Below are positions 9,917-42,872 of a DNA stretch of 64,000 bases, piece by piece. Both the position numbers and the translations under genes were made by a program. This DNA comes from Hericium rajendrae (lineage: Eukaryota > Basidiomycota > Agaricomycetes > Russulales > Hericiaceae), in assembly GCA_033439255.1 (NCBI GenBank), contig JAVRDV010000018.1:62001-126000 (forward strand). Reading direction: 5' to 3'. The notes below the pieces were generated by a model. It worked only from the letters and a program-made list of their open reading frames with translations, was not told the DNA's origin and ran no database searches. Within the stretch, counting starts at the first letter, position 1. Each line of letters begins with the position of its first letter.

Positions 9917-10424
9917 TGTAACGGGGCAACATTACTTTTGTAGAGTTTCCTAGCCTTATGCTATGCATGTACCTAGGGTTAGGGGTCAGCCCAGATATGG
10001 TGCTGGGCTTGCTTAGTAATATGACAATCTCTTCTTCTCATCCACTACTTGGCTCGAGCACATACGCTCCCTCTCGCCTTCGGGCGCTCTCCCTTTTCAG
10101 GGTTTCTCTCTTTCTCTGGCACCTCTCTCCCTCGCGCCCCGTTGCCCAGGGTCCCTCGTCAAGTAAGCAGGGGACGTAGGACTCTCTGGCTTTCTGGTCG
10201 CGTGCAGAAAGGTTGCCTTCTGTGCGTAAGCAGGCTGACCTGGAGATTAGCCTTGCTAGCACACAGTCTCTCTATTACTCTTGCCTTTCAGTCCTCCAGA
10301 CCTCTCGGGCAAGGGTGCTCTCTCCTGACTCAAGCGCCAGCTCATCACACGCATCACACCATAGCAACTCTCGCCAGCTCCTTCGGGGCAGATTCATGAC
10401 CCTTGTAGCAGTTCTCCTGTTACA
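9917..10424 (+). repeat. 5' LTR of the non-autonomous element
   Basis: 508 bp, TGTAAC...GTTACA. It contains C/T-rich stretches and the same internal order as the 3' copy. Confidence 0.85.
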
Positions 10425-12800
10425 AAGGTGGACAAGCAGTGGATCTGTCTTCACCTGGCCGGGGTCGCTCCTTGTTCCCCTGGTGTTGCCGAGTTTCGCA
10501 TTTCGAGTCACCTGTTCATTTCCCTCATATCTCCACCAATTCTTCCTCGATTTCCTATCGCATTGGATCTTCGGAAACCCCTTCATTGTCGCTTTCCAAC
10601 GCACCCGAGAGCGTTGCGACATGTCATCTTTCCGCGGAGATATGGGATGGTTCATGAGGGCTTGCTGTAGAGGGACTCAGGTACTAGTCCCTTCACCTCT
10701 CGCTGGATTCTGATGCTCTCTGCAAGTGTTTTGGGCGATTCTCTAGCCCTGAATCAGAGCTTTCCAACGAGCCCTCACACATCCCCATCCATCCACCCGT
10801 TCCTGCACAATTCCTTGTCCAGTCTAGGGGGGGTTCCCTTATGACTCACCAGTTTCTTCGCTCCACAGCGCCGCCAATCCTTATCGCCTGCGCATGCGGC
10901 TACCACCGTTCGAAAGCTAGGTTTTCCAGCTTTCAAACAAGACCTCATACACCGCGATCCGTCCTCAACTCGTCCCAGGAGCGTGCCATCTCTGCAGGAG
11001 GTCTTCGTTTTTCAGGTCCCTGGCTGTCCCTCCCCTATCAAGGCCAATTCCTCGCCGATTCACTTGGTCTCAATTGGATTGGGGAGCTCGTTTCAACTGC
11101 GTTCGAACGCGACCTTGCGTGCCACGATCGCACCTGCCGTTCACCCGCTAGATACCGACCTTTGCCTCCTACCTCCTCCTGGTGGGTGTACCTTGCCCCC
11201 AGTGCCAAGGGGCGAGTTCTGCTCCAAGTGACACAATCCTGGCTGCGTTCGAAATGCACGGTTTACCTGCTTTTGAACGCGCCCTCACATACCCTGTCAC
11301 GCTCAGAACTCGTCCCAGGAGCGCTTTATCTCTGGATGGGTGTCTGGTGGCCTGGTGCTCCTCCTATCTCGGCGAGTTCTTCACAGAATTCTTTGATCTC
11401 AAGTGCTGTGAAGAGCTCTCGATAATCGCTTTCGAACGGGACCTCATGCGCCAAGATCTGTCCACGGGTTGGTCCGCTACATCGCGACCTCCCTCTCCTG
11501 TCTCCTCCTGGTGGGTGCCCTTTGCCCCCAGTGTTGTGGGACGAGTTTTGCTCGGATCGCCACGATTTCGGATGCGTTCGATAAGCACGGATACCTGCTT
11601 TTGAACGCGCCCTTGAGGGACCTGCTGCGTCTGTCATGCACCCCAGGACTGCTCTGTCTCTGAAGGAGTATAGGGCGATCTGCCCCTGCATTGTTTCTGT
11701 CCTATCTTGGCCAGTTCTCCACGGATTCCCTTCATCTCAAGTGCGTCTGGGAGCGGTTGATAGGATCTTTCAAACGCGACACTGCACGGCCAGATATCAC
11801 CACCCGTTCCTTCGGCATCAGAGGATCTCCTCCCCCTGCTCCCTCCTGAGTGCTATCCCTTGTCCCCAGCGCTTTGGGCCGAGTTTTGCTCGGATTACCT
11901 CGCTCTTAGGCGTATTTGAAAGATGTTATTCCGCACTTTCGAACGAGCCTCTGTACGCCCATATCCGACTCCAACTCGCCCCAGGAGCAGTGCCTCTGTT
12001 TGGGCGCTCCAGCAAGCAGACCCCCTCATTGATTGCAAAATTGTGCTGCGAGTTTTGGTTCAAATCTCTCGCTCATAGGCGCGTTCGAAAGCCTTTATTT
12101 ACGTCTTTCGAATGGTACCCTGCATGATGCAATAGGTGCGATAACGTTTTCGCGGCGGCCTCACCTTCCTGGCGATCATTTTCGAGTCTTCCCCCTCCTC
12201 CTGCCTCAGCATCTCTCTGAGTTCTTCATAGTTTCCTTTCATCTCATTGGGCTCTCAAAGCGTTTATTCCCAAGGTTTCAGATCGTCCTGCGATGTAGTG
12301 ATCCGAGCTAGCGCTCTCCCTGGAACATTACATCTGTCTTTGGGCTTCCACTCTCTGGCCCTTCATTGGTCCTCAGGCTGTTCCTCTACCAATTTTGGGC
12401 CGATCCACTCGCATGCAGTCGCACTCGAAAAGCATGGATTCCTGCTTTCCGACGCATCTCTGTGCGCTCAAATTGGTCAAGAACTCGGCCAGAGGCACCT
12501 GTGCCTTTGCAGCAGATTCCTCGAAATTCGAGCTAAGTTGTACCTCACCGCGTGGGCCGAGTTTTGGACGGTTCGATGATATCATGGGTTTGCCAGAAAG
12601 CTATGCATCGTATCTTTCCAACGCATTCCTGTACGTCTCGATCGGCTCTGTATCGGCATCCCTGCATCGAATTTTGCTTCAGCCCTATCCCAGCTGACAG
12701 GATCTCTCTCTCTGCTGCCTTGGTTAAGCCCCTGGACCATTATCTGTCACCTTGGCCTGTTCTGAAAGACATTCCCTATCGTCTTTGAATGCTTTGAAGC
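10425..12800. repeat. Degenerate internal repeat array with CGTTCGAAAGC-type motifs
   Basis: The interior of the LTR element is built from diverged repeats. Short motifs such as CGTTCGAACGCGACC, GCTTTTGAACGCGCCCT, GTTCGAAAGC and CTTTCCAACGCA recur roughly a dozen times, with phrases like TCCTCCTGGTGGGTG and CCCCAGTG at about 350-bp steps (11180, 11505). Both orientations of TTCGAAAG occur. Mid-length open frames here follow the repeat and share no known domain. Confidence 0.65.
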
Positions 12801-14083
12801 CTGCTCCACCAGGAAACTTCTTTAGGAGATGTTTTACTTCCTCTGGCAGGAGTTCCCTTCTAGACTGCATTGTGCAGTTCCTTCTCAGTCTGTGGATGGA
12901 CTTTCCTGTTCATTGACTTCCCTTAAAGCTTTTCACCCTCACTTTTTGGGAAGTCCCTGTGTCTTGTCTTCACCATTTGACTTGACACTCTTCTTTGTTC
13001 CTTTCGAGGTCCTCTGCCTTCTCTTCGACAGGAGACACTTGCACCCTTCTTCTGCCAACTTCAGCCAGACTTCTAGGATCGACTTCTTGTCCCACCACTC
13101 TGTCAGGATGTAGGGGGACATTTTGCCATGGCTCAGTCAGTCAATGAAGACTGATGTCGACGACTTTGCCATCTGCATAATGTTCCCTATGGGAAGTCTA
13201 GATCTAAGGGGTAATCGCTAAAACGTTCCCTTTGTTGTATCCTCAGATACCCATAATACTTCCAAGCAAAGTGGCTAAGCCTGAGGTCATCCTTCCATGT
13301 TCAAAGTCTTTCAAGTCAATCCTCTTTGTTGGCTTTCTAGAAGCAGAGATGCTTTCATCTGTCTTGAGCTCTTGGCCTTGGACCTCCTCCTCTTCTGGAT
13401 TGGAGATATTCTGCCTTGTGCCTCTCCAGTCCTTTAATTATGCTCCCAATTTATGCTCTCCATTTTTCTCCTAAGTCACAGGATCCTTTTCATTTATTTT
13501 CATCTTCTTCTGGTCCAAGTCAAGATCAACTCCTATCCAGCTCAACTTTCTTCCATCCTCATCCCCTCCTCCACCCTTATTGGTCAACTCCATCCTTCTT
13601 CAGCTTTTGCTACTTGCTTTAGCTTTCGGCTTTAGCTTTCGGCATTTTGCTGTTGGTTTTTAGCTGACGGCTTTTGCTTTTGGCTCTTTCTGGGGTTCCT
13701 TTCCTATACCCGTCCTCTGGTCATGCGATGAGCCTGAGTCCACGCATAGGAAAGTAGGGGGGGTATAGGGGTAGTATAGGGCAGGTCTGGCCTCTAGTAG
13801 GCAGACATCTAACCTATCCTCACTTGGACCACTTGGAGTAGGCCTTTAGGGAGGTCCTGTGTTGAGGAGTGAGGTAGGAGTGAGGTTGTTAGGAGAGGGA
13901 CATGGTGAGATACCCTTGGATAAGGGTTAGTACCCTCAGATGGACTTTGGACTTTGGTAATTACTTCTGCCTCAGTATTTTTCTTCCACCCCTCCCTCCC
14001 AGATTTTTTCTTCTTTTTTCTCCTTTATTTTGACTTCACTTTCTTTTTCTGGTGCTTAAAAGCCTAGGAAACTGGGGGGGCTC
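12801..14083. other. 3' interior of the LTR element, no gene
   Basis: Pyrimidine-rich then mixed sequence with TTTCGGCTTTAGC repeats near 13620-13680 and G-runs near 13755. No coding domain was recognised. Confidence 0.5.
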
Positions 14084-14591
14084 TGTAACGGGGCAATATT
14101 ACTTTTGTAGAGTTTCCTAGCCTTATGCTATGCATGTACCTAGGGTTAGGGGTCAGCCCAGATATGGTGCTGGGCTTGCTTAGTAATATGACAATCTCTT
14201 CTTCTCATCCACTACTTGGCTCGAGCACATACGCTCCCTCTCGCCTTCGGGCGCTCTCCCTTTTCAGGGTTTCTCTCTTTCTCTGGCACCTCTCTCCCTC
14301 GCGCCCCGTTGCCCAGGGTCCCTCGTCAAGTAAGCAGGGGACGTAGGACTCTCTAGCTTTTTGGTCGTGTGCAGAAAGGTTGCCTTCTGTGCGTAAGCAG
14401 GCTGACCTGGAGATTAGCCTTGCTAGCACACAGTCTCTCTATTACTCTTGCCTTTCAGTCCTCCAGACCTCTCGGGCAAGGGTGCTCTCTCCTGACTCGA
14501 GCGCCAGCTCATCACACGCATCACACCATAGCAACCCTCGCCAGCTCCTTCGGGGCAGATTCACGACCCTTGTAGCAGTTCTCCTGTTACA
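14084..14591 (+). repeat. 3' LTR of the non-autonomous element
   Basis: 508 bp, near-identical to 9917-10424; followed directly by the CATAG target duplication. Confidence 0.85.
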
Positions 14592-20243: not shown

Positions 20244-20276
20244 CATCAGGAAAAACTGAAGTTTCACTAAATCAGA

Positions 20277-20341
20277 TGATGTGCCTATAGAAGCATTGAT
20301 GTGCCTATAGAAGCACTGATGTAGATATAGAAGCACTGATG
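20277..20341. repeat. Three tandem ~20-bp units
   Basis: GATGTGCCTATAGAAGCA twice, then a variant with TAGATATAGAAGCACT. Next to the left end of the CATC element, so possibly a protein-binding subterminal array. Confidence 0.75.
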
Positions 20342-20809
20342 GTAGCTACCGGTGTTTTCCGGCTGATCCTGTAGCTCTTCTATTACATACTGTATGACTG
20401 CATTCAGGTCCCATAGCTTGTCTTGTCCTACCGTAGTCTCCTGTAGTTTTCTGTAGTGACACTGTCTTTTTAATCCATTATATTGCTCAAAAGTCTTTCA
20501 AAAGTGATGTGAGGCTTGTATTTCATCATATGATCTGCCAGTTTTGATTACTAATATGCTATCACCACTAGTAACATGTTACGCACACATATGTGCCTCT
20601 AAGCAAGTCCTGCTCATACTGTGTGTCTGCATTTTTTTGCGGTTCCAAGGCAAGCAGGAAATAACTCAGAACAAATGTGAGTGTATTAAAATACTCTTGA
20701 CTAACACTTTTCAACAAGTCTAGGATAACACCCTTGCATAGACGACTTCAAGTTTCAAAAGGTATGTGTGGCTGACGCTTTGACACCATAGATTTTGATG
20801 TTATGCACC

Positions 20810-21480
20810 AAGCACTGCACCGATTTGCATGTATGTACATGCGTTCGAAAGCTACTGATTGCCGCTTTCTGGAACACCAGAAATGTTGCCGGTGTGTTCA
20901 CTCGTTGTAAAGATAACCTCAAAACATGTTCTTGCTGACAGTTTCAGAGATTCTGTTGTAGTGCCTCAAGTTTTTCACCCATCAGGGCGCACGATAACTC
21001 GTTCAAAAGCTCTTGATGAGCTCCTTTTAACGAGATAAAGATTTTCGTGGTATGTCCAATATTTGTCATGATATATCCAATTTTCGCTCAAAGGGACGAT
21101 TTTTAAATCTTCTCGGATCAGGTTGTGTAGGGCACCGTTCGAAAGCTATGCTCAACCGCATTCAGGAATGTCTGAAACGTCAGCGGTGCGTGTTCTCGTT
21201 GTGAAGATATGCCAAAACTGCTGTTTGACCTCCATTTTCAGAGATTTTGCCACTAGTGCACGAGTTCTGCACCTAACGTAGCGTATGAGGGCTTATTTGG
21301 AAGCTACGAATAAGAACATTCAGATGAGCCAAAAAGATATGTGGTGCATGCAATATTCATAAAGTTATATCACTTTTTGTATCTACTAAATGTCACTTAC
21401 AGCATTCTGGCCATAGCGCCTTTAATATCCAACAGATCATGGCGTACAAGGCATCGTTCGAAAGTGACGATTCGTCTGGC
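20810..21480. repeat. ~310-bp degenerate direct repeats (CGTTCGAAAG units)
   Basis: Units start near 20842, 21134 and 21450 with GCGTTCGAAAGCTA, ACCGTTCGAAAGCTA and ATCGTTCGAAAGTGA. The first two share CAGAAATGTTGCCGGTG/TGAAACGTCAGCGGTG, a CTCGTTGT-AAGATA phrase and CAGAGATTNTG at matching offsets. The motif resembles the array inside the LTR element at 10.4-12.8 kb. Confidence 0.65.
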
Positions 21481-21602
21481 TTGGCCAGTACTAGGTACGT
21501 GTTAATCAGATGAAAACTGATGTTTGTAGCAGAGAAATGCAGAACTCTCCAGGGGACCCGGATACTCTCCCACGCTCCTTGCAGCTAAGACGCACAACAG
21601 GG

Positions 21603-21784
21603 CAGAACACAGATGGCCATATCTGGCAATCTGATTTCTGCCAGCATTGAACAAGTGTAAGTCAGTGTAGAGTTCATATCTATAAACACTGAAGGAAATT
21701 TTGTTAGTAATGTAACTTGCAATGTTTTTATTTTTCGTGCAGGAGCCAGAAACCAGATTGCCAAATATGGCAATCTGGTTTCTG
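21603..21784. repeat. Pair of 38-bp palindromes 144 bp apart
   Basis: 21747-21784 is a perfect hairpin: arms CAGAAACCAGATTGCCA and TGGCAATCTGGTTTCTG around AATA. 21603-21640 is a mutated version (CAGAACACAGATGGCCA, TATC, TGGCAATCTGATTTCTG). They may be the ends of a small MITE-like unit of about 180 bp. Function unknown. Confidence 0.7.
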
Positions 21785-22019
21785 CCTTTGGTGTTGTTTG
21801 GCCTTAGGATTTGCCAGCAGCGCGTCATCTTTGCCACTCTTTCTAAGTCTCTTCTCTCTCACTCTCTCACTCTCTTACTTCTCTCTCTCTTGTTTTATTG
21901 TAAGTCTGTTATTCTTTTGTTCTCATCTCTTTTCAGGTTAGAAGGGTGTAAGAGAAGGCTAGAAGAGTGATACTGGTACATTGTATGTATGTTTGTTTTT
22001 ATTTTATTGGTTGTTTCAG

Positions 22020-22360
22020 CGCTGACATGCTTGCTCATCTGCCTCCTACCTGCCCGCTCACCCATGCAACCATCCACATGCATGCCTGCCTGCTTGCCTG
22101 CTCACTTGCCTGATGGCTTGTCCGCTTGCCCGATGGCTTGCCCGCTTGCCCGATGGCTCGTCTGCTTGCCCGATGGCTTGCCCACAATCTGTTTGCCTGC
22201 CTGCTCATCTGCACATCTGCCTGCTCACCTATGTACCTTTCCACTTGTTCACATGCTCGTCTGCTCACCTGCTTGTTTGCATGCTCGTCCACTCACCTGC
22301 TTGCCTACATGCCCACCTGCTCACTCACATGCCCACCTGCTCACTTGCATGTCTGTCTGA
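22020..22360. repeat. Low-complexity CCTGCTTGCC/CCCGATGGCTTG tract
   Basis: Irregular tandem repeats, clearest at 22100-22190 (GCTTGCCCGATGGCTTGNCC, 20 bp, about four units), then CTGCTCACNTGC variants. The open frames here (Leu/Ala/Cys-rich) are products of the repeat and are not credited as genes. Confidence 0.7.
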
Positions 22361-22760
22361 CCTATGTATGTACTACAGTAGAGGGGACTGGTGTTTATAT
22401 ATCTGTGAGATGACAGCACAAGTGGCCTAATGTAGTACGGAGTAGTAATTAGCTAGCTCATGTTATGTAGTTATTCTTAAATAAAGTTTTTGAATTTTCT
22501 GATATATTGCAATTGAGTGAAATATAAGGATATCAACAGTTGTTTATACATTGAATTGTATAACTACTGTAAAGAGATTCATTGCTACAGTAGAGACATA
22601 TTCACTACAGGTCACTACGGCTCACTATCGGAGCCACGGTAGTAGGGGGGGTCCTACGAGTACTACAGGAGCTATGGGAGCTACAGGTCACTACGGTAAG
22701 ATTCTGATCACTACTGTAGCTCATGGTAGCCCACTGTAGCTCTTCCTGTTTTTCCAGATG

Positions 22761-23721: not shown

Positions 23722-24126
23722 AAGGTCAGGTGGTGGTGCAGGGAAGTTGGGGCCATGAGCATCGGTTTCCTTGTAAGCATCTGAGAAAACTGAATTTTAT
23801 ATAGCTGCAGGTTATATTATGGATACTATCACTAAGCTATAGAAGCTATGTAGCTTGCCTATCTAGCTATGTAGAGCTATGAGAGCTTTCATAGCTCTCA
23901 TAGCTACTAGTATTAGTTATATGATGTTATCATAGCTTCCATAGCTAGCACTTTAAAATATATAACACTATCATACTTAGTAAGGTGAGCTATGAGTACT
24001 ACTAGTACTACTAGGACTATGTTAAGTCTACCAGATACTTAGGTGCAAAATATTTGAAGTCAATATTAATTATATTATACATAATAACTACTACAGAGAA
24101 GTATACTACAAGTATGAATACCGCAG

Positions 24127-25130
24127 CTACGGATAGCATGTGGGGTGCATGCAGGCACGAGTGCACTGGTGGGATGCGACAAGGTGCACATGCGCACGAG
24201 ACACAGCGTGCCACGGAAGTCGCGCACGAGGCACGGCGGGCCCATGCAAGAGGTGCACGGTGGGAGGGCGAGGCGCGGCGAGACGTCGGTGGGCGGCTAG
24301 AGGCACTGCACTCAGGGCAGCGGGGCATGCACGAGAGGCATGGAGGCCAGCCGTGGGGCATGAAAGGTGGCGCGAGATGGGGGCGGGTGGCAGCGGACCC
24401 ATGCATGAGGCGTGAGGCAGGGAAGGTGGGCGTGCGGGGCATGCACGACGTGGCAGGCTCGCATGCCAGAGGTGGAAGGTGCTGGGAGTGTGTGAGATGC
24501 CGTGCATGTGCGCGAGGCGTCGGAGTACAATGGGGCCATGTGCAAGGCTTCGGCAGGCTGCACGAGCCTGCACAAGACTCCGTGGTGAAGGCCCGCATGG
24601 TGCGCGCGAAGCGTCGGGCGGGGGCATGCATGAGCAAAGCTTGTGTGTGACAGGGCCTGCACACCGGAAGCACAGCCCAAGGTGCAGAGGTGCGCGCGAG
24701 TCGTTGTTGCGCTGCCGCAGGTCCGTGCATGACGCGGCAAATCTGCGCGAGGTGCGACAGCCGCACGCAAAAGGGCAGCACGCAGCATGAGGCATGGAGC
24801 CTGCGCACGAGGCATCAGGCTACGACAGCCTGCACATGGCCATGCATACACACGCGCTATGCTCCACTGGCAGGGCCATTTGCATGCACCACAGCAGGGT
24901 CGCGCACAATGCTGGGCCCGTGCACGAGAGAGGGAAGCCCCGTGCAGCATGCCTGGTCCATATGCCAGGCAGCAGTGCAGTACACAGGATGGCGGGGCCA
25001 CGCAGGAGGGGCGAAGGCCGTTGCGAGGCGGCAGGCTCTTGTCCGGCAGTGTGCATACGCCAGCACACGTGGTCGTGGTTGTGGTCATTGAAGATGGCAC
25101 ACCAGGCCCTGCAGGCATGATGGCGATGTC
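24127..25130. repeat. G/C-rich low-complexity block of copy 1
   Basis: Irregular repeats of GCACGAGGC, GCGTGAGG, GGGGCATGCA and GGGCCCATGC. Several frames on both strands stay open for 200 or more codons (Ala/Arg/Cys/His-rich). Composition alone explains this, and the frames are not conserved between element copies. Confidence 0.65.
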
Positions 25131-25190
25131 GGAGGATGAGTCGATGCGGGAGAGACAGTGGTGGAGGCAAGAGGAATGGGGAGGAAGTTG

Positions 25191-25218
25191 AGAGCGTCGC
25201 TCGTTCGAGCGACACTCT
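25191..25218. other. Hairpin H1 of copy 1
   Basis: Arms GTCGCTCG and CGAGCGAC around TT, extended by AGAG/CTCT. On the minus strand the outer AG is also the acceptor of the 25217-25261 intron, so the stem straddles the 3' splice site. Confidence 0.75.
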
Positions 25219-25261
25219 CGATGTTAGCATGAAGAAACAAGTTGAATGTTTTTTTACTCAC
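25217..25261 (-). other. Predicted 45-nt intron, minus-going transcript of copy 1
   Basis: Donor GTGAGT (25261 downward), branch GCTAAC, acceptor CGAG. The same signals at the same place occur in copies 2, 3, 5, 6 and 7, all 45-47 nt long. Confidence 0.65.
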
Positions 25262-25410
25262 CTTGGATGCCCTCTGCGTCCTGCTGATCCCCTCCGGCAT
25301 TTGGTCTGAATGAATCAGAGGGAGGGAGGGATGAGGGAGAGAGATGAGAGGCGTGTGGTGGTGGTACTTAGGGACAAGGAGTGAGATGAATCGTCGAACT
25401 TCGACCCGCA

Positions 25411-25431
25411 TTCGGTGCTTCAGCCACCGAA
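25411..25431. other. Hairpin H3 (TTCGGTG...CACCGAA)
   Basis: TTCGGTGCTTCAGCCACCGAA; equivalent sites at 35541-35561, 57782-57802 and 53375-53395. The best conserved short block of the family, followed by CGAGCGAAGCC in several copies. Confidence 0.65.
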
Positions 25432-25667
25432 CGAGCGAAGCCACATTATTCGAGCCACCACAAATCAGATAAAATCGCATAAAGTTAGATAAATTTGGTG
25501 CAGCTATTTACAGTACATACAATTTGAATCAATGAGCACTCTAGGTATCTACTGTACATGAAGCTCATGGGGAGCCAAGTCCATTTACTGGAGTCTGGCG
25601 CCTAGTCTCTGACGCAATGCTCGGCAAGCGCCTGGCAGCCATGAATCCTGGCTCCACCCGGGATTCG

Positions 25668-25675
25668 TATATAAG
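25668..25675 (+). promoter_or_regulatory. TATA box of plus-going transcript, copy 1
   Basis: GGGATTCGTATATAAGGG; the same CCCGGGATTCGTATATAA context occurs in copies 2 (35797) and 3 (58039), with weaker versions in copies 6 (41971) and 4 (53644). Confidence 0.6.
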
Positions 25676-25864
25676 GGTCACACGATGTGCCTTCCCTCTT
25701 GCTCTTTAGCCCCCACCATGTCTTGCCACGTCGACATTTCATTGTCGTTCTTTGCTCACTCGTCGTCATTGCTTGCTCATTCGTCGCTGTTGCTTGCTCG
25801 CTCGTCCCTATTTCTTGCTCGCTCGTCGCTATTTCTTGCTCGCTCGTTGCTGCTATCTCTCAAG

Positions 25865-26070
25865 GTAAGCTTTTATTTTTTCTCTTTTATGTCTTATGCT
25901 AATATCTTTGTTACTTGTTACAGTACTTTTGTATGGTGACTAGGTAAGTAGTGTTATATCTTAATGCTGATGTAGTCTTGCTTTTTGTTTGTTTGAGGTA
26001 AGCTCTTATGTGTTATCTTTGTTATCTCAATACTAATGTCTTATTTTATTTATATTTTTGCTTTTTGTAG
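25865..26070 (+). other. Three consecutive mini-introns, plus-going transcript of copy 1
   Basis: 25865-25923 (GTAAGC, GCTAAT, TTACAG), a 20-nt exon, 25944-25997 (GTAAGT, GCTGAT, TTTGAG), then directly 25998-26070 (GTAAGC, ACTAAT, TTTGTAG). The second acceptor touches the third donor, giving AG|GTAAGC with no exon between. AATAAA follows at 26134. Confidence 0.55.
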
Positions 26071-26522
26071 TTATTGTAAGTTTGTTATCTCTTGTAGTCA
26101 TCTAGTAGTTTTTGTAGTTTAGTCTTGTTTTGAAATAAAATCCTATGAAAAATGTTATGACTTTTAAACTTTTGATATCTCTGATGAAAATGAAGAAAAT
26201 TATTGAGCTAAGAAAATGTTTTAAAATGCTGGAACAACATATTTCACAGAAGTGATATAGAGTGGATAGAAATCTTACTAGCTAGATATGATATAACAAT
26301 GATGATATAGCATATAGTTAATATAGTTTTTATAGCTACTTTATACTATAATAACTATAAAAGCTATGATATCTTATACTCTATGCTATAGCAGCTATAT
26401 AGCTTAGACCCTATGCTATGATAGCTATGACAAGCTATGATAGCTATGCATAGATTACTTGACTGCTATGAGACTGCTATGTAGAAAAGAGGACAGCTAT
26501 GGACCTAGGAAAGCTATATAGC

Positions 26523-28334
26523 CTACATAGCCTTATATACCAGTGGTAAATTTCTCAGATGAGGGGACAACAGGGATGTGTGAAACACTGGATGGATACG
26601 CCAGGTGAGCGGCAGCTTCAGTTGATAAGAGACCGGGCCCAGGATGTTAGTGATTTCGAAAGGTCCTAGGCGTCGATCAGCAAGCTTAGCTTTGGGCCGT
26701 GTGGTTTTGATGTTCTTGCCATCGAGCCAGACCTTGTCACCAACCTGGAAGTGGATGGTGTCATGCATATGGTCCTGGTTGTTGCGCTTCATGAGGTCGG
26801 CGACTGTTTGAAGGCTGGCCTGGACCTCAGTGCAAAGCTGTTCGAGATGACAAAAATGATCCTCGACAGCAGGTGTAGACGACATGGGGTTGACAGTGGG
26901 GAGGGCAGTGGGAATATAGCTGAGGAGCATTTCAAATGGAGCTCAGTTAGTGGTGCTGTGGATACGGTGGTTGTGCGAGAACTCAGCGTAAGGGAGCCAT
27001 TGGACCCAATCATCCTAACGGTAGTTGCAGAAGGTGCGAAAGAACTGCTCAAGTTCTTGATTGACACGTTTGGACTCGCCATCGGTCTTGAAGAAACACA
27101 ACTTAGAGAGACATTAGTCTATACTCAGTCTGTGATGTGAAAGACTATATTGCAGTACCTTAGAGAGACGTTAGTCTATACTACAAGTAGAGTCAGTAAA
27201 GATGAAACTCATAAGTAATGCAAGATATGCTCACCTCAGTCTGTGATGTGAAAGACTGAGGTATCTGAGTGAACAAGGGAGCCCTTATATAGTACTGAGG
27301 GCTCTGCATATCTACCAATCAGAAATTGTACAGTAATCATACAGCATAGCATAATGGATTGCTCATCGCATGGGAACTGCATCAGTCAGCTCACTAAGGT
27401 ATCAGTAAGCATATGTCAGAGCGTATTACTAACCTGTACAGTAAGGCTATGTAAATGTTCCATGTGATTCTGCAATCACCAAAGTCCAGATCGTTCCAGA
27501 TCTTTCTATAATTGTTGTCATCAAGACTAGCGTCATCAACCAATTTCAACAGGTCTGTGGATGATAGGCGGTGCTGAGGGAAGACTTGATGCCAAGTTTG
27601 TCAAAGACCCCACACATAACTTTGCCTGCATACTGTGGGCCACGGTCAGAGATGAGGTGTTTCCAGAGGCTGTAGTTCCAATAAATCCTGTCAAAAAGGA
27701 TGTCGACTGTGCCATCACTGGTAATGGTCTCTTTGCAAGGAGTGAAGGAGATGTGCTTTGTAAAACGGTCAACGACCACATTGATGGAGTCATAGCCTTG
27801 GCATTCTGGGAGTTTGACGATGAAGTCTGAGGTAATGTCTTGGAAAGGACGGGTAGGGATGGCATTGGGAATTGTTTCAATGTGAGGGCAGTGATTTTGA
27901 ACCTTGGTGGCCTGGCAGGTAGCACAGCCATTGACATAATCACGAACAAAGACAAACATACCGGGCCACCAGTAGTTGCAACTAAGGAGCTCATAGGTCT
28001 TGTAGCATCCTGAGTGACCAGCCATGGGCGTGTTATGGTGCAGCTTGACGATGTCCCGATGAAGGTCCTTGTCAGCAGGGATGTAGACTTTGCCACAAAA
28101 GAGGATGAGGCCATCCTCGTAGTTCCATTCTTGGAGGTTCTTGACAAGGGAGCGAGGACCATTGTTCAGGATCACATCAAGGGCTTGAACGACCTCAATG
28201 TCCTTGGTCTTGGCATTGCGAATGCATTGGCAGAGATCAGCATTGCCAATGGACTTGACAGCGGCTGGACATGTAGCACGAATCTGGAAGTACTTGGGGT
28301 CGAGGAGGACACGATCTGAGTTGTTGTTGTCCAC
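26523..28334 (-). pseudogene. Gypsy integrase region (fossil part)
   Basis: On the minus strand: the HHCC zinc finger (HHNTPMAGHSGCYKTYELL, then CATCQATK), the catalytic core start (DITSDFIVKLPECQGYDS, VVDRFTKHISFTPC, LISDRGPQYAGK), and the C-terminal part with VGDKVWLDGKNIKT and ADRRLGPFEITNILG before the chromodomain. Integrase inserts the cDNA into chromatin. The region is split by a solo LTR and cut off from the chromodomain by copy 1. Confidence 0.85.
27089..27551. mobile_element. Solo LTR, Copia-like, inside the Gypsy element
   Basis: 463 bp, plus-strand ends TGAAGAAACACAAC and CCAATTTCAACA (minus strand TGTTGAAATTGG...CTTCA), bounded by a perfect 5-bp duplication GGTCT (27084-27088, 27552-27556). 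It carries TATATAAGGGCTCCC on the minus strand (near 27290), a TATA-type signal. The TGTTGAAATTGG start is like Copia LTRs of mushrooms; the family call is inference. It contains two direct copies of CTTAGAGAGACATTAGTC-type sequence near its left end. Confidence 0.8.
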
Positions 28335-33132: not shown

Positions 33133-33939
33133 GGAGCCTGGGTAATTTGGCAAGGACCAGAGGGAGCAAAAGTGAGTAAAGCAGATCTTTCGTTTGATTT
33201 TTTTTGTGCTAATCCGGGGGTCTTGCTCGTTATTGAGCGAGACCTCTTGTTTCTTCTTTGCCCCAACAACCTCCTATCACATCCGTTCCCCCGTCGTTGG
33301 CTCGGCCTCACCCTCTCCACCTTCGCAATCCACCTTCGCACCCCCATGACGCTGTCTGCGGGTACGACATCTCCCACAGCTCGCACACCTACCCTGTCGA
33401 CTCTCCCGTCCACCTTCCCTGAGCTGCACGTGCGCCCACCACTTCACGCAAGTGTGCAGGGTGTTCAGCACCTATGACAATGCCCTCGCACACCATCAAC
33501 AGCCCGCATGAGCTCCAACAGCTCGTGCGGATCTGTCAGGCCGCCTTCGTCTCCGCAGCTAGTCCCCAGTCCTCGCGCGCCTGCCTCGACCCCCACGCGG
33601 TCCACACACCTATGCATGAGGATGCCGGGTGGCCAGCACTCGCGGCCATGTCTGCAGACACCCTCAAGAGCCTGTGCGAGCCTGCCACACCACCTTCACT
33701 GCCATCACACACCCCCCACTCCCTTCCTCAACCCACAGGCAGATTGCGACACACCCCACAAGCTCAACAACATGCAAGGATGCCGATGGGTTCTCCATGA
33801 GCACGACAACACCCGCGTGAGCCTCCAACATCTCGCACGGGACACGTCGAGTCTCATGGCAATGAGACTCGATAGCTTGTCATGGGACCCTCTCGCCTCC
33901 TGATGCCGCTTCCACCGCCACTGCATCATCCACAGACAA
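33133..33939 (+). mobile_element. Hairpin-module fragment in opposite orientation (copy 9)
   Basis: Plus-strand donor GTGAGT near 33171 and GTGCTAAT lead to hairpin H1 at 33219-33244 (TCTTGCTCG/CGAGCGAGA type arms). A C-rich block follows (reverse of the G-rich block of other copies), then palindrome P2 at 33847-33872 (TCGAGTCTCAT / ATGAGACTCGA). Copy 2 is inserted at 33940; G/C-rich sequence of similar kind resumes at 36813-37100 and may be the rest. The left junction with the Gypsy LTR suggests insertion with loss of sequence or recombination. Confidence 0.55.
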
Positions 33940-35023
33940 CATCTGAGAAAACTGAATTATATATAGCTGCAGGTTATATTATGGATGCTATCACTGAGCT
34001 ATCAGAGCTATGTAGTTTGCTTATCCAGCTATGTAGAGCTATGAGAGCTTCCATAGCTTCCATAGCTAGTACTATGACTTATATAGTGCTACCATAGCTT
34101 CCATAGCCAGCAATATAAAATATATAGCACTATCATACTTAGTAAGGCAAGCTATGACTACTATTAGTACTACCATTACTATATCAAGTCAACTAGGTGC
34201 CTCTTAGGTATAAAATATTCAGTCAAAATTTATTATATTGAAGAGAATTACTATTACAGGCAAGTACACTACAACTAGCTAGATGCAACAAGGTGCGCAC
34301 ACGCACGAGGCGTGGCGCGGTGCGGCAGTCGGTCATGCACGACACAGCAGTCGTGCGTGAGGCATGCGGTGGGCCCGTGCGAGAGGTGCGCGGGAGAAGG
34401 CGAGGTGCGGCGAGGCATCCGTGAGTGGCTACAGGCACTGCACTCAGGGTAGCGGGCAATCGTGTGCAAGGCACGGGGCATACGCGTGAGGTACGGGAGC
34501 CAGGTGTGAGATGTTGAAGGCGCCGTGAGGAGGCAGCTGGTGGCGGGCCCATGCACGAGGCACGAGGCACGAGGCGAGGTGCGGGGAGTGGGCATGCTGC
34601 GATGCACAACGTGGCAGATCTTTGGTGACACGGCAGGCCCGTGCGCCAGATATGGGAGGCCCTGTGGACGTGCAAGGCACGATGGGTGTGCGCGGGGCAG
34701 GTGCGAGGCACGAAATGGCTGCATCGGGCTTCGCGAATGATGCACGGGGACATCCGCAACACGGAAAGCCTGCGCACCAGAAGCGCAAGGCAGGACAATG
34801 GGCAGGGGGACGTGCGTGAAGATGGCTGCACGCGGGAGGGCCATGCGGAATGTGAGGCATGGGGCCCACGTGTGCGCGGAAGCGGGGCATTGTGGGTGCA
34901 GGTGAGGGTTCAGGCGAGCGGGTGGGGTGTGCTGGAGCTGGTCGCTGTGCTGGTGACACGGCAGGATGTGGAAGAGTGTGCTTGAGGGGTTGGGATGACA
35001 AAGGGACGACAAAGGGATGACGC

Positions 35024-35055
35024 TCGAGTCCCATTGCCACGGCAATGGGACTCGA
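35024..35055. other. Palindrome P2 of copy 2
   Basis: TCGAGTCCCATTGCC / GGCAATGGGACTCGA around AC, a nearly perfect 32-bp palindrome. Counterparts: 33847-33872, 41201-41226, 52825-52850, 63708-63741. Confidence 0.75.
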
Positions 35056-36530
35056 TGGTGCAGGCACGCACGGACGTTGAGGGCACAGGCATTGACATAA
35101 CTCATGTGCGACAATACAACGTGGGTGGGTGGTTGGGTGCACAAAAGTGGGGACCGGGATGCATGTGTTGTGGCACATCAGGCGCAGGGTGTTGAGTGCG
35201 GGCATCAGAGCACGTTGGTGGCAGCATTGGGACGGTGTGAAGAGCAATGGAAAGGGGATAGTGGAGGAGACGGCGCACGACGGGGATTGGAGGGGTCGGA
35301 ATATCGAAAGAATGAGTGTCGCTCGAGAACGAGCAACACTCTGCGTTAGTACGAACAAACACGAAAGAGTTATTTTTTTTACTTACCTACAGCCCCTACA
35401 CCTTACTAAATCCTCGCCCGATCCATCTTGACTGTCGATAGAAGGAGGAGTGAAAAAAGGCAAGCGAGGGGAGCCAGAGAGGGACAGACAGAGTGAGGGA
35501 GGAGGTGAAGACTTCAGCAAGTGAGGAGTCTCGACGCGAGTTCAGTGCTTCAGCCACCGAACGAGTGAGTCAAAGTTTCTCGCGATGTAACAAATCGAAT
35601 AAAATACCTATAATTACAAAACAAAATACGGCAGTGTAGAATAGTAACATACATGGAATGAATGAGCTGAGTATCTACATAATCTAGCACACAAGACCGG
35701 ACAGCAGAGTCAAAGTTATCACGTCTGCCACTTAGCCTTTGACGCAGCACTCGGCAATGCCCGGCAGCCACGAATCTCGGCTTCGCCCGGGATTCGTATA
35801 TAAGACTCGCGCGACATGGGTTACCTGTTGCTCTTAACTCCCACCATGTCTTGCCACGTCGACACTTCTTCATCATCGTTTGCTCGCTCGTCGTCATCCT
35901 TTGCTCGCTCGTCGTCATCCTTTGCTCGCTCGTCACTGTCTTTTGCTCTCGCTGTCTTTTGCTCTTTTGTTGCTGTCTTTTGCTTGCTCGTTGCTGTTAT
36001 CTCTTTTAAAGTTAGCTTTTATTCTCTGTCTTTTATGTCTTTATGCTAATATCTTTATTACTTGTTGTAGTACTTGTGTTGATTTACTAGGTAAGCAGGT
36101 TTATATCTAAATACTAATGTCTTTAAATTGTCTTGTAGGTTTTCACTTTTTTTTTTTAGTTTGGTAAGCTTCTATATATTATCTTTGTTCTCTTCTAACA
36201 ATGGTCTTCTTGTCTTGTTTAGATTTGCACTTTTTATATTCATTGTAAGTTTGTTATATTTTATAGTTATCTAGTAGACTTCATAGCCATAGTAATATTT
36301 TGTAATGAAATTGTTTGAGAAATATAAAATATCTAATTTTCGATATTTGTGACTTTAAGATACTAGGGCATTGGGCCTATTATTTATTTGTTTTATATGT
36401 TAGAACGATATATCTTATAGAAGTAACATAGAGTGGATAGCAATCTTACTAGCTAGATAAAATATAAGAATTAAGGTATCAAATATAGTTAATATAGCTT
36501 CTATAGCTATTTTATACTATAATAGCTATG

Positions 36531-36690
36531 ACAGCTATAATATCTTCTACTCTAAGCTATATCAGCTATATAGCTTATGCTCTATGCTATGGTAGCTATG
36601 ACAAGCTATGACAGCTATAATATCTTCTACTCTAAGCTATATCAGCTATATAGCTTATGCTCTATGCTATGGTAGCTATGACAAGCTATG
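36531..36690. repeat. 80-bp perfect tandem duplication in the AGCTAT zone
   Basis: The 80 bp starting ACAGCTATAATATCTTC at 36531 recur exactly from 36611. A recent replication or recombination product found only in copy 2. Confidence 0.85.
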
Positions 36691-36812
36691 ATAGCTATGC
36701 ATAGATTGCTTGACTGCTATGAGACTGCTATGTAGAAAAGAGGACAGCTATGGACCTAGGAAAGCTATATAGCCTACATAGTGTTATATACCAGTAGTAA
36801 ATTTCTCAGATG

Positions 36813-37100
36813 GAGGCATGCGGGCCACAAATGGCATGCACAGCCCGTGCGCAATGCACATGAGGTGCTGATGGCCACGTGGGACCCAACCGACACACAC
36901 GGGGATCATCAACTGTGCAAGCATGCTGTCGGCAACATTCATAGGGCCATAGCGACGTGCGCACACTGCTGCGAGCATATGGCATTGGTGAGTTACATGG
37001 GACACAGACGATGCACTGGTCCTCACTGGTCCCCAAATGGCGCGTGCATAGTGTTGACAATGTGCGCAGCTGCTGGCAACCCACACAATGTACATGCATA
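36813..37100. other. G/C-rich continuation, probably of copy 9
   Basis: GCATGCGGGCC and CGTGCGCAATGCAC-type sequence like the low-complexity block of the CATC elements. No supported gene; then A/T-rich sequence leads to the hAT end at 37305. Confidence 0.35.
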
Positions 37101-37523
37101 CTTAGATAACTTATAATATATGGTTTCAATTTTTTGAAGTCTCAATTGACCTGCGAGTAACTTGTTGCTGCACAGGTACTCGATCCATGGCTCCGAATCA
37201 CCCAGTGGCTGAAACCTGCATGGATCCAGGTGTGGGTCTATCCTGGGTCAAATATCTGTGGGTCCGGATCCAGGTGATCTGTGAGTGCACTCGTGTCCAT
37301 CCCTACTCTCAGCTGGCCCAACAGCTCATCTCAACCAATGTCACTACTGGTGATGTTGTTGCACCTTATATGCCTTATATGTGTGCTATATAGCTACTTA
37401 GCATAGCTATGGGAGCTATAGACATGTCTTTACATGCTAAAGAGCCTATGTAACCTATGTCAACTATAGAGTCTTGTAAGTGTAAGCTATATGCTATCAT
37501 ATCTGTGAGACATACAGCAACTA

Positions 37524-40364
37524 CATCAGGGAAATGAACAGGTCCTATATAGCTCTATAAGTCCTACATAGATTTCCTAGAGCCATAGCAACGTCAAGTT
37601 CTACATAGCTCATATAGCTGTAGTGAGATGCTATATAGTGCTACATAGCTTGAGTGGGTTGCTATATAGCTCTATGATAGCTATGATAGCTTCCTAGTCA
37701 ACTATGGTATTTATTATAGCAGATCTAGCTATACAATGTATGGAAGATATCTTACTGATATAAGTTATACTCAGTAGACACATGTATAAACTTTATCATA
37801 GCTACATATATAAACCTCATTATATGGCTTTAAAAGACTTCATAAAAGTCTACAATATTATATTCACTTTATCACATAAAAGTCAAACATCAAACAATAT
37901 AAGATTATATCAAAAAGATTATATTCAAAATCTAACAAATATTTGTAATCTACTACACAACTAAACAAAGTATACATATATCTAGCAAGATATATGTTAA
38001 TTATAATATCACAGGGTTATATATGAGCAAGAAGACTTATCAGTATTAGAAAAAAGCGAAAATCTAAACTATAGATTGTCAACAAAAGTGATATAAGAAG
38101 TCTACAAGTCTACAATGAGTACTCACCAATAGAACAAAAAAGCGAAAATCTAATAACCTAGTAAGAGAATACAAGTCAGAGTAACAACATAAGACTAACA
38201 ACATAAGAAAGCTTACCACAAATAGAAGAGTCAAGAGCCCGAGGTAAAGTTAGAGTTAAAAGCTCGAAGACGGAGGAGATGGTGGTGGTAAGAGAGAGAG
38301 AGAGACGACGCGCGTCGCGAGCGTTAAATAAGATTGCCAGCGGAGCCACAATTATGTCCGGGCCGGGTACTGCCGGGCACGGCAACAGAGGCTAGGCGGG
38401 CAGACCTCATTATATTGTCTGTGTTGCCCGGTGATTTACAGTACAGTAGCTAGAATTAATACTCATACAATCTGTTCTTCGAATTAATAGACAGTTGTTG
38501 CTTTTTTCCCGTGAATTATGTGATTTTATTTGATTTGTTGTGCCTTGTCGATCTTAGCTTCGCGCGTTCGGTGGTAGCAGCGAAGTCGCGTCGTTCGTCT
38601 TCGCACTTGGTCGTCTCTCCTTACCCATAATTAATTCCCTCTCCTTTGGTCTCTCCTCCCTCATCTCGTCTTCCATCGTCTCTCGTCAACTTGCAGGGTT
38701 CCAATAGCAGGGGCTCGAGGGTCCAGGGGCACAGGTAAGTAAACAAATATATATCTCGTGTATAATGTACTGATATCGAGAGTGCCACTCATCGACGAGT
38801 GGCACTCTCGTTTGCTCGTTTGCTCTCAACCCCGGCGCGTACCCTTCCCCCCTCCGACACTCCGCCGCCCCGCTCTCGCGCACCCTCCGTGCCTATTCGC
38901 CTGCCCACCACCCCATCAACGACGTCCGTGCGACCGCAGCCCGCGCGCGACCCGCCCATCCCGTCCACGACACGGGCAGCCAGCCCACAACACCCGCAGC
39001 CTGTCAACGACACGGGCAGCCGCGGACGACACACAGCCCGTGAACAACACGGCCAGCCCGTGGACAACGCGGGTAGCCCAAGGACGACACCAGCGCACAG
39101 ACGACACCAGCCCGCGGACGACGCGGGCAGGCCGTCGACGACACAGGCATCCCGCGGACAGCGCTGGCAGCCCGTCGGCGATGCGGGCAGCCCTCGGACG
39201 GCACGGGCAGCCCGTCAACGACGCGGGGCCCGCGGCCAACACGCGGCCCGCAAGTACTCGACGGGCAGCCCAGCGATGACGCGGGAAGCCCGTCGATGAT
39301 GCGGGGAGCCCGCAAACTGTCGACGGGCAGCCCAGCGACGACGCGGGGAGCCCGTCGACAACATGGGGAGTATGCGCGGGCACGGGCCACGCACACACGC
39401 TGTTGCATGCCATCTGCACGTGGTCAATGACGTGTGTGCACAGGCCATGCCTCTCGCACCTGTCGTGCACGGCCTGCGCCCTTCCTGTGCCCATCACATG
39501 CCCTGCGCACCGCCTCCGTACCTTCTGCGCCGCCTCCTTGCCCTCCGCGCCACCTCCTTGTCCTCCGCGCCGCCTCCTTGTCCTCCGCGCCGCCTCCGCA
39601 CCCTCAACGCTGCCTCCGTGCGCTCCGTGCTGCATCCGCCACGTCTGCACCCTCCCCGCCGCCTCCGCGTATTCACCGCCGCAGCCGCGCCGTCCGCGCT
39701 GCCTCCGTGCCGTCCGTGTCGCGCCTACGCCCTCAACGCCTCATCCGCACCCTCAACGCCGCCTCTGCGCGGTCCGTGCCGCATCCGCCACCTCTACGCA
39801 CCCAACGCTGCATCCGCGCCGCTGCATCTGTGCCCTCAACGCCGCATCCACGCCGCTACATCCGCGCCCTCAACGCCGCATCCGCGCCACTGCATCCGCG
39901 CCCCCAACGCCACGTTGCGCCCCCAACGCCGCGTCGCGCATCGCGCGGGCTGCTGAGTCAGCCCACACCCATCTGCAACACCCCGCACACGAGCATATCC
40001 CATGCCTGTGCCCTGTAGCTAGTACATCATGTAGCTACATTGACAATATAAATATTTTTACCTTGATGATCATGCTTGTTGTCCTCCAATCTGAATTGCA
40101 GAAGATTTGAACCTTGATGCCTCTAATATCTAGCTGAGTAGCCATAGGGCATATAGCTTTCATAGCATGCCTATGAGATTATATAGTAACCATAGCTATC
40201 CCTTATGACTACATAGAGCTATATACCTTGTACTTACTGCTATGGAGACTATGATAGTCATCATAGCTCTATATAGGTGAGGAGGGGGCTACATAGACCA
40301 TATAGCCCTATCATAGATCACATAAACTGTTACTGAGCTATGTAGAATTCCCATTTCCCTGATG
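37524..40364 (-). mobile_element. CATC-ended element, copy 5 (2,841 bp), divergent ends, reversed plan
   Basis: Ends CATCAGGGAAATG on both sides (inverted), with perfect 2-bp duplication TA (37522-37523, 40365-40366). It lies inside copy 6. Internal order is reversed relative to the other copies: mini-intron and promoter side at 37.8-38.4 kb, intron 38735-38780 (46 nt, GTAAGT, TACTGAT, CGAG), H1 38778-38809 with arms GAGAGTGCCACTC/GAGTGGCACTCTC, then a C-rich block (38.82-39.96 kb) full of ACGACGCGGGCAGCCCG and CCTCCGCGCCG repeats. The block gives long Ala/Arg/Ser ORFs by composition. No transposase. Confidence 0.8.
38820..39960. repeat. C/G-rich repeats of copy 5
   Basis: Two tandem families: GACGACGCGGGCAGCCCG-like units (about 18 bp, 38930-39370), and CCTCCGCGCC / ATCCGCGCC units (39500-39950). 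All six frames are unusually open for this reason. No gene credited. Confidence 0.75.
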
Positions 40365-42872
40365 TATACACATTATCCAGAGTATAAATGTCATATAATG
40401 CACACAAAAAGTGAATCAAATCCATATTTATTATTCAAGTCACAAGTACTCTAGTACAAAGATTTGAAAGCTCTAATTATGTCAAGAGCCAGCAGGTGCC
40501 ATTAAGCACCATCATGCGCTGATGCTTGTCAAGCACACAGGCACAGAGGGTGCGAATAGTGATGACACATGGGCAGGTGGCAGGATGCACAGGCATGGGG
40601 ATAGCAGGTGAGAACAGGGCATTGCACAGGCGTGTGGGATGGCATGGGAGTGTGGGGTGTTAAACACAGATGCAGGGTGTCATACAGCCATGCTGGGCAG
40701 TCTGCACATGCATGGAGCATGCACACATACAGCGTGTCGAGCCTGGGGGATGCAGACCAGGAGCACAAGAGCATGCGCATGTGAGGGGCATTGTGGGAGA
40801 GCACGTGGCATTGAGCACGTAGCGAGATGGGCAGGCATTGAGCATGCGGTGGGATGAGTGCACGTGCTAGGCATTGCGTGCATGTCCAAGGCCTGAACTG
40901 GCTGTGACATGCGAGCACGGGCTGCTATGCCCATTTCTGGGGTGTGAAGGACGAGCACGGGGTGTAACTCACAGGGGCAGGGCTTGAGGCATGCATGCAG
41001 GGCCCTGGAGCATGCGTGCTGGGTGCTGTGCACGACCATGGGGCATTGTGCATGACCGTGCAGTGTTGTGTGCAACTGTGGGGCATTGTGCATGTCAGTA
41101 GGGCATTGCGAGCATGTGAGGTGTTATCTGCGAGTACATGGCTTTGCAGGGCATGGGGTGAACATGCGGGGTCGTGCACCATAGGCACGAATGATGTCCA
41201 AGTCCTATTGCCACAGCAATGGGACTCTACGGTGATGCAAGTATGCCAGATGTTGAGGGCACGGGCCATGACGTGGCCCGCGCATGCACGCCGTTGATGG
41301 TGCACAGGTGGTGGCATGACAGACGTGCGCAGTCTGTGGCCAGATGCACAAAGGTGAGGACCCGGGTGCCAGTGTCATGGCACATCAGGTGTGGGGTGTT
41401 GATGTTGAACATGTGGGCAACTGGGGCATTGGCAGTGTCGTTGGAAAGGCAGTGGGGGTGGTGGAGCGGTGTACATCATGAAGGTGATGATGGAAGGCAT
41501 CTGGGCATCAATGGAATGAGTGTCACTCAAAAACGAGTGACACTCTTGATTAGTACAAAGAAATCATAGAGATATTGCCTTTTTACTTACCTGCCACCCT
41601 CTCCCTACTGCAAACTTATTCCCGCTGGGTTGATGTTCGCTGGAGCATGAAAGAAAGAGAAGGTGAGGGAAACACGGTGAAGAAGGGAGGGTGGCAAGAA
41701 GGAGCAGCAAGTCTTGACCCATTAACTTGGGGCTTCGACCATCAGATGCGTGAAGAGATGCAACAAATCAAATAAAACAGTTAAAAATATGAAAAAATAA
41801 CACAAGATATATTTTGAGCATCTCTGTATATTACATGAGCTACTTTTGTAACAACCATATGGTTTACCACTGGACAGCAGAGTGAAGATAGCTAAATCTA
41901 ATATTTAGCCTCTAGATGCGATGCTCAGCAACGCCCAGCAGCTACAATTCTTAGCTTTGCCTGAGATTCATATATAAGACTTGTGTGACATGCCTTCCCT
42001 CTTGCTCTTTAACCTCCATCTCTTGTCACATTAGCACCTTCGTTGTTATCGTTTGCTCGCTCATTGTCATCATTGCTTCCTTCATCGTCATTGTCTATTG
42101 CTCGTTGTTGTTGTCTCTATCAAGGTAAGCTTTTATTTTTTGTTTCTTATAGCTTATACTAATATCTTTATCCAGCTTTGTTATATCATGTACTGATGTC
42201 TTCATGTATCTTTAGATTTTGCTTTTTTGTTACTTTGGTAAGCTTTCATCTGTTATCTTTTCTTAATTAGATCTTTGCTTTTTGTAGTTATTATAAGCCT
42301 GTTTGTAGTCTTCTATATTAGTCTTGATTAATGCTTATATTTTTATAGAAGTTCTTAATGTTTATCTTACATAATGTAGTGTAGTAATGTATTATAATGT
42401 TGTAGTTAGTAAATAAAATTTTGTTTTTGTGCTTAACTTTTGTTATGATAAATCTCATTGTATGGTGTTATAAGAAAGCTTTATATTCTAGTTGAGCTAC
42501 AAATTTACATGATAAATTTATAATATACAGATAATACATAGTGAGCTAGCATAGTATAGAAAAAGGAAGCCTTATAGTGTATAGATAATATATAGTAAGT
42601 TAGCATAGTGTAGATGATATAGACTTTGTAGACTTTGTAGGTAAATTAGATTACATAGCTCCCATAGCTAAGCCTATAACTCTATAGCTATTATAGCTAC
42701 TCTTGTAGCTTTATAGCTCTCATAGCACTCTATAGCTGTCTCTAGTAGCTATATAGCACTCTATAGACTAGGGCACTCTATGACCAGATATATACAAAAG
42801 AGGGTAGCTATGGAGATATGCAACCTATATAAGATATAAAGCTCTTTATAGCTACCCAAAATTTCTCAGATG

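Follow-up and report, generated by a model that had tools for sequence, protein, structure and literature searches.

A 64-kb stretch of the Hericium rajendrae genome (contig JAVRDV010000018.1, positions 62,001–126,000; hereafter the window, whose coordinates are used throughout) carries six elements of 2.7–3.1 kb, E1–E6, and a looser relative, E0. These are probably PlavakaB-type non-autonomous transposons, mobilized in trans, with a noncoding interior conserved above its own background. Nearly all of the evidence is internal to these 64 kb. By content the window reads as eukaryotic and most likely fungal, with Ty3/Gypsy-type domains, short intron-like motifs, and CpG decay lacking TCG depletion. 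For a non-autonomous transposon, the ends are usually considered sufficient; the fixed layout of these copies, kept without an enzyme, suggests that what is preserved inside them is not coding capacity. The combination of a multi-kilobase interior, near-constant promoter spacing, paired hairpin changes, and no coding signal would suggest that transcription or chromatin features can come under selection among copies.

The original prediction described a family sharing CATC ends. Direct reading of ends and flanks established CATC..GATG inverted ends for E1, E2, E4, E5, E6, and E0, with 12 of 12 terminal bases inverted in E4 and 11 of 12 in the other five; the left end of E3 is weak, matching its own right end in CATCT only and, by eye, resembling the left end of E5. 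The ends read CATCT..AGATG in E1, E2, E3, E5, and E6, and CATCA..TGATG occurs at both ends in E4 only and at one end in E0. All four predicted target duplications are present, giving a perfect 2-bp duplication in four of the seven elements (AG at E1, TA at E4 and E5, CT at E6). Two predicted copies, 37327–42872 and 37524–40364, are real, but one is nested within the other: E4 lies reversed within E3, and the remaining elements of E1–E6 share one strand. E0, predicted to be a CTACAG relative, resembles the others in general style, but a profile search found that it lacks the promoter core common to E1–E6. Pfam returned no hAT match and so did not confirm that the sequence around E0 derives from an hAT element.

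We scanned for all CATCW..WGATG pairs lying 0.3–12 kb apart with a 12-bp inverted repeat and at most two mismatches. The 84 pairs returned include the six elements with confirmed inverted ends, which were known beforehand from the earlier list and not found blind; a 2-bp duplication accompanies four of these six versus six of the 78 other pairs (Fisher P = 0.0014).

Empty sites were assessed by comparing the open frame across the site with one duplication copy kept and with both kept, in stretches that limit frame length to about 250–300 amino acids (aa). The one-copy frame was longest at all three sites tried (E1, E5, and E6). At E1, the frame with a single AG extends 252 aa and enters a chromodomain-bearing open reading frame (ORF), whereas no frame that keeps both copies exceeds 181 aa; Ty3/Gypsy-type chromodomain, integrase, RNase H, reverse transcriptase, gag, and protease domains surround the element (Pfam). 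Margins are modest at E5 (195 versus 176 aa) and E6 (190 versus 158 aa). The evidence that E1 is an insertion with a 2-bp duplication is strong, and that for E5 and E6 is good. Because 452-bp direct repeats, 91% identical (50227–50678 and 60526–60977), surround both E5 and E6, these two are placed in one retroelement; the ORFs beside them had no Pfam match. E2 interrupts a sequence (33133–33939 / 36813–37110) that has the hairpin–intron module described below and G/C-rich DNA, with no ends recognized by eye.

The terminal arms carry the sequence that would be expected to interact with a transposase. Nearly all AGCTAT/ATAGCT copies in E1–E6 fall within the outer 350 bp, and the middle parts hold zero to two each (left/middle/right counts of 10/1/11 in E1 and 9/0/21 in E2); subterminal transposase sites are expected to give such motif-rich outer regions. 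Identity over the last ~215 bp is 92% for E1/E2 and E2/E6, and over the adjoining 300 bp of interior it is about 65–83%. Interior windows among E1, E2, and E6 drop to about 40–80%, and the interior of E1 is about 50% identical to that of E3, E4, or E5. On these identity profiles, the ends appear to be the part that a common enzyme holds constant.

Tests of the interiors revealed no conserved protein, as had been proposed. Stop-to-stop ORFs of 40 aa or more number 232 across the seven elements; their matches between elements fall on both strands and in several frames, in line with plain DNA homology. Codon-position and indel tests on the E1/E2/E6 pairs gave no coding signal: differences by position modulo 3 in the ungapped blocks printed number 124/134/128 (E1/E6) and 138/136/135 (E1/E2), and indels divisible by three make up 12 of 39 (E1/E6), 14 of 46 (E1/E2), and 23 of 58 (E2/E6). 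Eleven of the 232 ORFs, long ones from E1, E2, E4, E5, and E6 with none from E3 or E0, had no Pfam match at an E value of 0.1, and the Plavaka transposase domain PF18759, which marks autonomous members, was absent from 29 other window ORFs scanned against Pfam. Such an absence is expected of non-autonomous copies, and the claim is therefore that they are mobilized like PlavakaB, not that they are autonomous members. A small peptide from a CACCATG start in E1 and E2 was rejected, the ATG being missing by eye in E3, E5, and E6.

Instead of coding sequence, the elements share an ordered set of promoter-like and splice-like motifs. A promoter-core profile matched all six of E1–E6 and nothing else at E values up to 10; the profile was built from the same six elements, so that only the absence of other matches is independent. 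The 8-mers most conserved in the right half of the six elements are CAGATAAA, AGTCTCTG, CCACCGAA (the palindrome), TATATAAG, TGCTTTTT, and GCTCGGCA. A common internal order was predicted for the AGCTAT copies, and an order that runs from the G/C block through the hairpin and the left-unit 5′ splice-site motif to the palindrome, TATA, and the right-unit 5′ splice-site motif is complete in E1, E2, E3, E4, and E6, and E5 keeps all of it except the left-unit splice motifs; the poly(A) signal that was to complete the plan is conserved only to an average degree. E3 and E4 have degenerate palindromes, the TATA of E4 reads TTATTTAA, and the right-unit 5′ splice-site motif follows TATA in each element (GTTAG, not GTRAG, in E2). 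Distances are 188–242 nt from hairpin to palindrome, 444–485 nt from hairpin to TATA, and, by subtraction, 232–256 nt from palindrome to TATA, with 243–244 nt in four of six.

Conservation was tested by ranking windows within the homologous region; a circular-shift test of shared signal positions was dropped, since homology alone beats that null. The palindrome ranks 13 of 939 and TATA 29 of 952, and 5′ splice sites 1 and 3 and 3′ site 3 fall in the top 8–13%. These ranks show clear conservation of the promoter core and only partial conservation of the predicted splice signals. The exact promoter-palindrome pattern had no match in viral or prokaryotic contig collections, which says little about relatives, and the right-arm pattern and the Gypsy-type polymerase protein had none in viral contigs, which likewise says little.

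A hairpin search (stems ≥12 bp with no more than one mismatch and ≥40% G+C) yielded 16 hairpins versus 0–1 in three resamplings. Eight of these, with two from a later motif search (at 1832 and 33216), form a first class of 10, aligned by hand in a frame of 14 + 2 or 4 + 14. In this alignment 132 of 140 stem pairs form versus 120.6 in column shuffles, and double changes affecting both sides of a pair number 17 versus 5.7; none of 5,000 shuffles reached either value, and with arms swapped between elements at most 125 pairs form. Nine of the 10 stems start 5–8 nt past the C that opens a branch-like CTRAY, which itself lies 34–37 nt beyond a same-strand 5′ splice-site motif. Nine hairpins combine branch and 5′ splice-site motifs, versus none in 99 of 100 resamplings and two in the other. 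Under looser criteria, only matches with a 5′ splice-site motif were in excess (15 versus 2–9). By eye, the hairpin base reads CAG or TAG in E2, E6, and the copy at 2580, GAG or AAG in others, and lacks AG at 33216; because of the CAG/TAG bases, the stem may begin the next exon. Four of the 10 hairpins lie outside E1–E6, and the module is therefore wider than this element family. An AG-free tract after the hairpin, considered as a long zone between branch and 3′ splice site, was dropped because equal or longer AG-free runs occur elsewhere on the C-rich strand in most blocks.

A reading of the hairpins as DNA features rather than RNA structures, whether palindromes that repair keeps perfect or protein sites, is rather unlikely. 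Such features would suit the second hairpin class, whose TTGCC/GGCAA core recurs (at 1560, 21758, and 35034; decayed at 52831) with no splice context seen, but they leave unexplained the 34–37-nt same-strand spacing between 5′ splice-site and branch motifs at nine of the 10 first-class hairpins. The E0 hairpin at 21744–21787, with a 20-bp stem and the same core, seemingly belongs to the second class, and a further candidate at 41202 folds weakly (z = −1.7).

The G/C blocks combine local repetition with signs of methylation. The top lag is 20 bp in the blocks of E3, E4, E5, and E6 and in the array of E0, with differing unit sequences; a universal 20-bp period was rejected, since it is not the top lag in E1, E2, or the blocks at 1390–1830 and 61200–62370. 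The pyrimidine-rich array has a top lag of 21 bp in five of five elements (E1, E2, E3, E5, and E6). Block CpG observed/expected is 1.2 in E4, 1.17 in E6, 0.75–0.94 in E1, E2, and E5, and 0.46 in E3, and ranges over 0.41–0.67 in three flanking stretches; block TpG+CpA climbs from 1.35 to 2.2 as CpG falls. CpG-site transitions number 26/64 (E1/E6) and 28/61 (E1/E2) in block segments; the left arm, which has less CpG to begin with, shows 1/34 (E1/E6) and 1/31 (E2/E6). Judged by composition, the blocks show methyl-CpG decay, and the high CpG of the E4 and E6 blocks reads as if source copies had stayed unmethylated. TCG-biased hypermutation as in Pucciniomycotina was rejected, there being no TCG depletion.

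The blocks also bear on whether the interior is a captured host noncoding RNA gene or promoter, conserved because successive copies share one source. The TATA, splice motifs, and fixed layout do resemble a transcription unit, and the 64 kb gave no match at the Rfam 15 gathering score, so that a captured RNA would be undescribed. E1, E2, and E6, however, share different G/C segments pairwise, a mosaic beyond shuffles (0 of 5,000) in sequence that is in part hardly alignable, and block units differ among elements, unlike a recent capture of one gene; we regard capture as very improbable. The corresponding E2/E1/E3 mosaic test was not significant, 5,000 of 5,000 shuffles reaching the observed value.

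Under the PlavakaB-type reading, a transposase encoded elsewhere would recognize the CATC..GATG ends and the AGCTAT-rich arms, and movement, presumably by cut-and-paste, would make the 2-bp duplications. The central promoter-like region would drive divergent transcription: on the TATA side, a right unit with the pyrimidine array and short introns; on the opposite strand, a left unit whose intron would end at the stem-loop, through splicing at the hairpin, before the CpG-dense repeat block. The cassette would help the element while encoding no product, most likely by keeping transcription on and chromatin open, with the ends accessible. This open-chromatin step is a guess and less likely than the PlavakaB-type reading. 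A fuller version, which we consider distinctly unlikely, is a selfish noncoding cassette in which selection among elements maintains the divergent promoter, hairpin-gated introns, and CpG-dense repeat, so that the element stays open and unmethylated; it would do by DNA and RNA alone what TET-carrying relatives are thought to do by enzyme, and families that differ in their ends would acquire the hairpin–intron module from one another.

Descent is a serious rival to this function step, and contests only that step: the copies could be internal-deletion derivatives whose interior is only a remnant of the control region of an autonomous PlavakaB, copied by descent and without present function. The low interior identity of E1 to E3, E4, or E5, the strong CpG decay, the three copies without a duplication, and the modest splice-signal conservation would all agree with it. 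The paired hairpin changes, the 243–244-nt palindrome–TATA distance in four elements, the same hairpin module outside E1–E6, and the absence of any detected coding remnant do not, and we hold this account possible but somewhat doubtful. The proposal that selection acts on RNA or DNA features is supported by the paired changes and by the conservation peaks at TATA and the palindrome; single splice signals give it weak support or none, and it does not hold for poly(A).

Several results weigh against the PlavakaB-type reading and its conserved interior. Perfect duplications are absent from three of seven elements (E2, AA/GA; E3, CT/AT; E0, TG/TT), the ends are mostly CATCT and not CATCA, and no DNA-transposase family was found by Pfam among 40 window ORFs, a set smaller than the whole six-frame window. 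The tested signals average a conservation of 0.62 versus 0.51; branch 1, 3′ site 1, 5′ site 4, and poly(A) are only averagely conserved, 456 of 954 windows being at least as conserved as the poly(A) signal. The hairpin statistics rest on a hand alignment with shuffles that leave relatedness in, pair types match the shuffles (16 versus 16.1), and paired changes could stem from repair of DNA palindromes in place of RNA selection. The stricter branch and 5′ splice-site criteria were set after the looser-criteria results had been seen, and under the latter branch-plus-hairpin matches were not in excess (58 versus 41–63 in 10 shuffles).

Table 1. Elements and internal features, in window coordinates.
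Feature	Element	Position	Strand	Remarks
Element	E0	20244–22760	+	looser relative; CTACAG subterminal motif; without perfect duplication or shared promoter core
Element	E1	23778–26561	+	2784 bp; AG at 23776–23777 and 26562–26563; in chromodomain Ty3/Gypsy-type pol region
Element	E2	33940–36812	+	2873 bp; without perfect duplication; 80-bp tandem duplication in right arm (36524–36698)
Element	E3	37327–42872	+	~2.7 kb minus nested E4; weak left end; without perfect duplication
Element	E4	37524–40364	-	2841 bp; inside E3, opposite orientation; TA; 12/12 inverted terminal bases
Element	E5	51475–54572	+	3098 bp; TA; between two 452-bp direct repeats
Element	E6	56065–59068	+	3004 bp; CT; between same repeats as E5
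G/C block	E1	24130–25180
G/C block	E2	34280–35300
G/C block	E3	40480–41500		lowest G+C and CpG of six blocks
G/C block	E4	38812–40000
G/C block	E5	51850–53190
G/C block	E6	56420–57560
First-class hairpin	E1	25190–25219	-	at presumed 3′ splice site of left-hand unit
First-class hairpin	E2	35312–35343	-
First-class hairpin	E3	41516–41547	-
First-class hairpin	E4	38778–38809	+
First-class hairpin	E5	53200–53231	-	without splice motifs
First-class hairpin	E6	57572–57601	-
First-class hairpin	outside E1–E6	1832–1863	-	branch-like motif just before, 36–37 nt from 5′ splice-site motif
First-class hairpin	outside E1–E6	2439–2470	+	as above
First-class hairpin	outside E1–E6	2580–2611	+	as above
First-class hairpin	outside E1–E6	33216–33247	+	in sequence interrupted by E2
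Promoter core	E1	25407–25722	+	palindrome, CAGATAAA, AGTCTCTG, TATATAAG at 25668
Promoter core	E2	35535–35850
Promoter core	E3	41725–42020
Promoter core	E4	38276–38590	-
Promoter core	E5	53373–53698
Promoter core	E6	57776–58087
Pyrimidine-rich array	E1	25706–25862	+	downstream of TATA; 21-bp top lag
Right terminal arm	E1	26346–26561	+	AGCTAT-rich

Other features of the window lie outside these elements. A dense TCTGA/TCAGA cluster at 101–800 (21 per 300 bp), followed by a G/C block and three first-class hairpins, is possibly an arm of another family; a complete element at the left edge was not supported, a single such cluster being found. Tandem repeats of 43–44 bp with a TGGTTGGCCAA core occupy 3052–4025. 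Direct repeats of 508 bp, 98.6% identical (9917–10424 and 14084–14591), enclose about 3.7 kb in which the one ORF scanned had no Pfam match; 9917–14591 is a recent element resembling those with long terminal repeats and may be noncoding. A JmjC domain (ORF 48075–48494, E = 9.8e-11) lies within 47473–49048 (+), with neighboring ORFs in other frames, and this region is either a host histone-demethylase-like gene or transposon cargo. The right edge, 61200–64000, holds a G/C block, CTACAG-rich DNA, and a hairpin with a 17-bp stem (63706–63743); near 62400–62465 an intron-like stretch on the minus strand, seen by eye, has no hairpin.

Miniature inverted-repeat transposable elements (MITEs) and Ds-like deletion derivatives are moved in trans, with inverted ends and no enzyme of their own. 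MITEs are short, unlike the 2.7–3.1 kb found here, and deletion derivatives retain segments of the gene they come from, none of which were seen here. Mirage is an example of a group with 2-bp duplications, and an origin in such a group, or in a Harbinger-like one, in place of PlavakaB is quite improbable. Several groups make short duplications (PMC12730594), no transposase was seen, and the ends are mostly CATCT; yet ESTA and PHISTA duplicate the dinucleotide TA (PMC12730594), as in E4 and E5, and E1 has AG and E6 CT, while the CATC ends fit PlavakaB. Fungal EnSpm (CACTA) elements have CAC..GTG ends and 3-bp duplications and PlavakaA ends in TGT..ACA (PMC12730594); the ends here are CATC and the duplications 2 bp.

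PlavakaB, of the CMCT clade, has CATCA..TGATG ends and duplications of 2 or 3 bp (Kojima 2025, PMC12730594). The suggested mobilization by a Plavaka/CMC-type enzyme is supported by the 2-bp duplications in four of seven elements and by the CATC..GATG ends, which read exactly CATCA..TGATG at both ends in E4 only. That the ends do not begin CACT, raised earlier as a reservation, is no objection, because published PlavakaB ends are CATCA..TGATG (PMC12730594). The elements differ in their mostly CATCT ends, in the lack of a transposase or TET/JBP gene in the scanned ORFs, and in a large conserved noncoding interior, which has no counterpart in the parts of PMC12730594 covered. Plavaka elements are sparsely described, and no noncoding interior of this kind appears in the passages on them that were covered, all from outside subscription papers and supplements, which does not establish that it is new. 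Non-autonomous DNA elements of Marasmius oreades are likewise defined by ends and duplications and lack transposition domains, but are mostly <1,000 bp (PMC8290104), whereas those described here are longer and carry promoter-like and splice-like motifs. VANDAL elements practice anti-silencing through VANC proteins, in noncoding transposon regions (PMC10398659); nothing is encoded here that would correspond to VANC, and only if the cassette guess is right would the two systems be alike, in placing anti-silencing in noncoding DNA.

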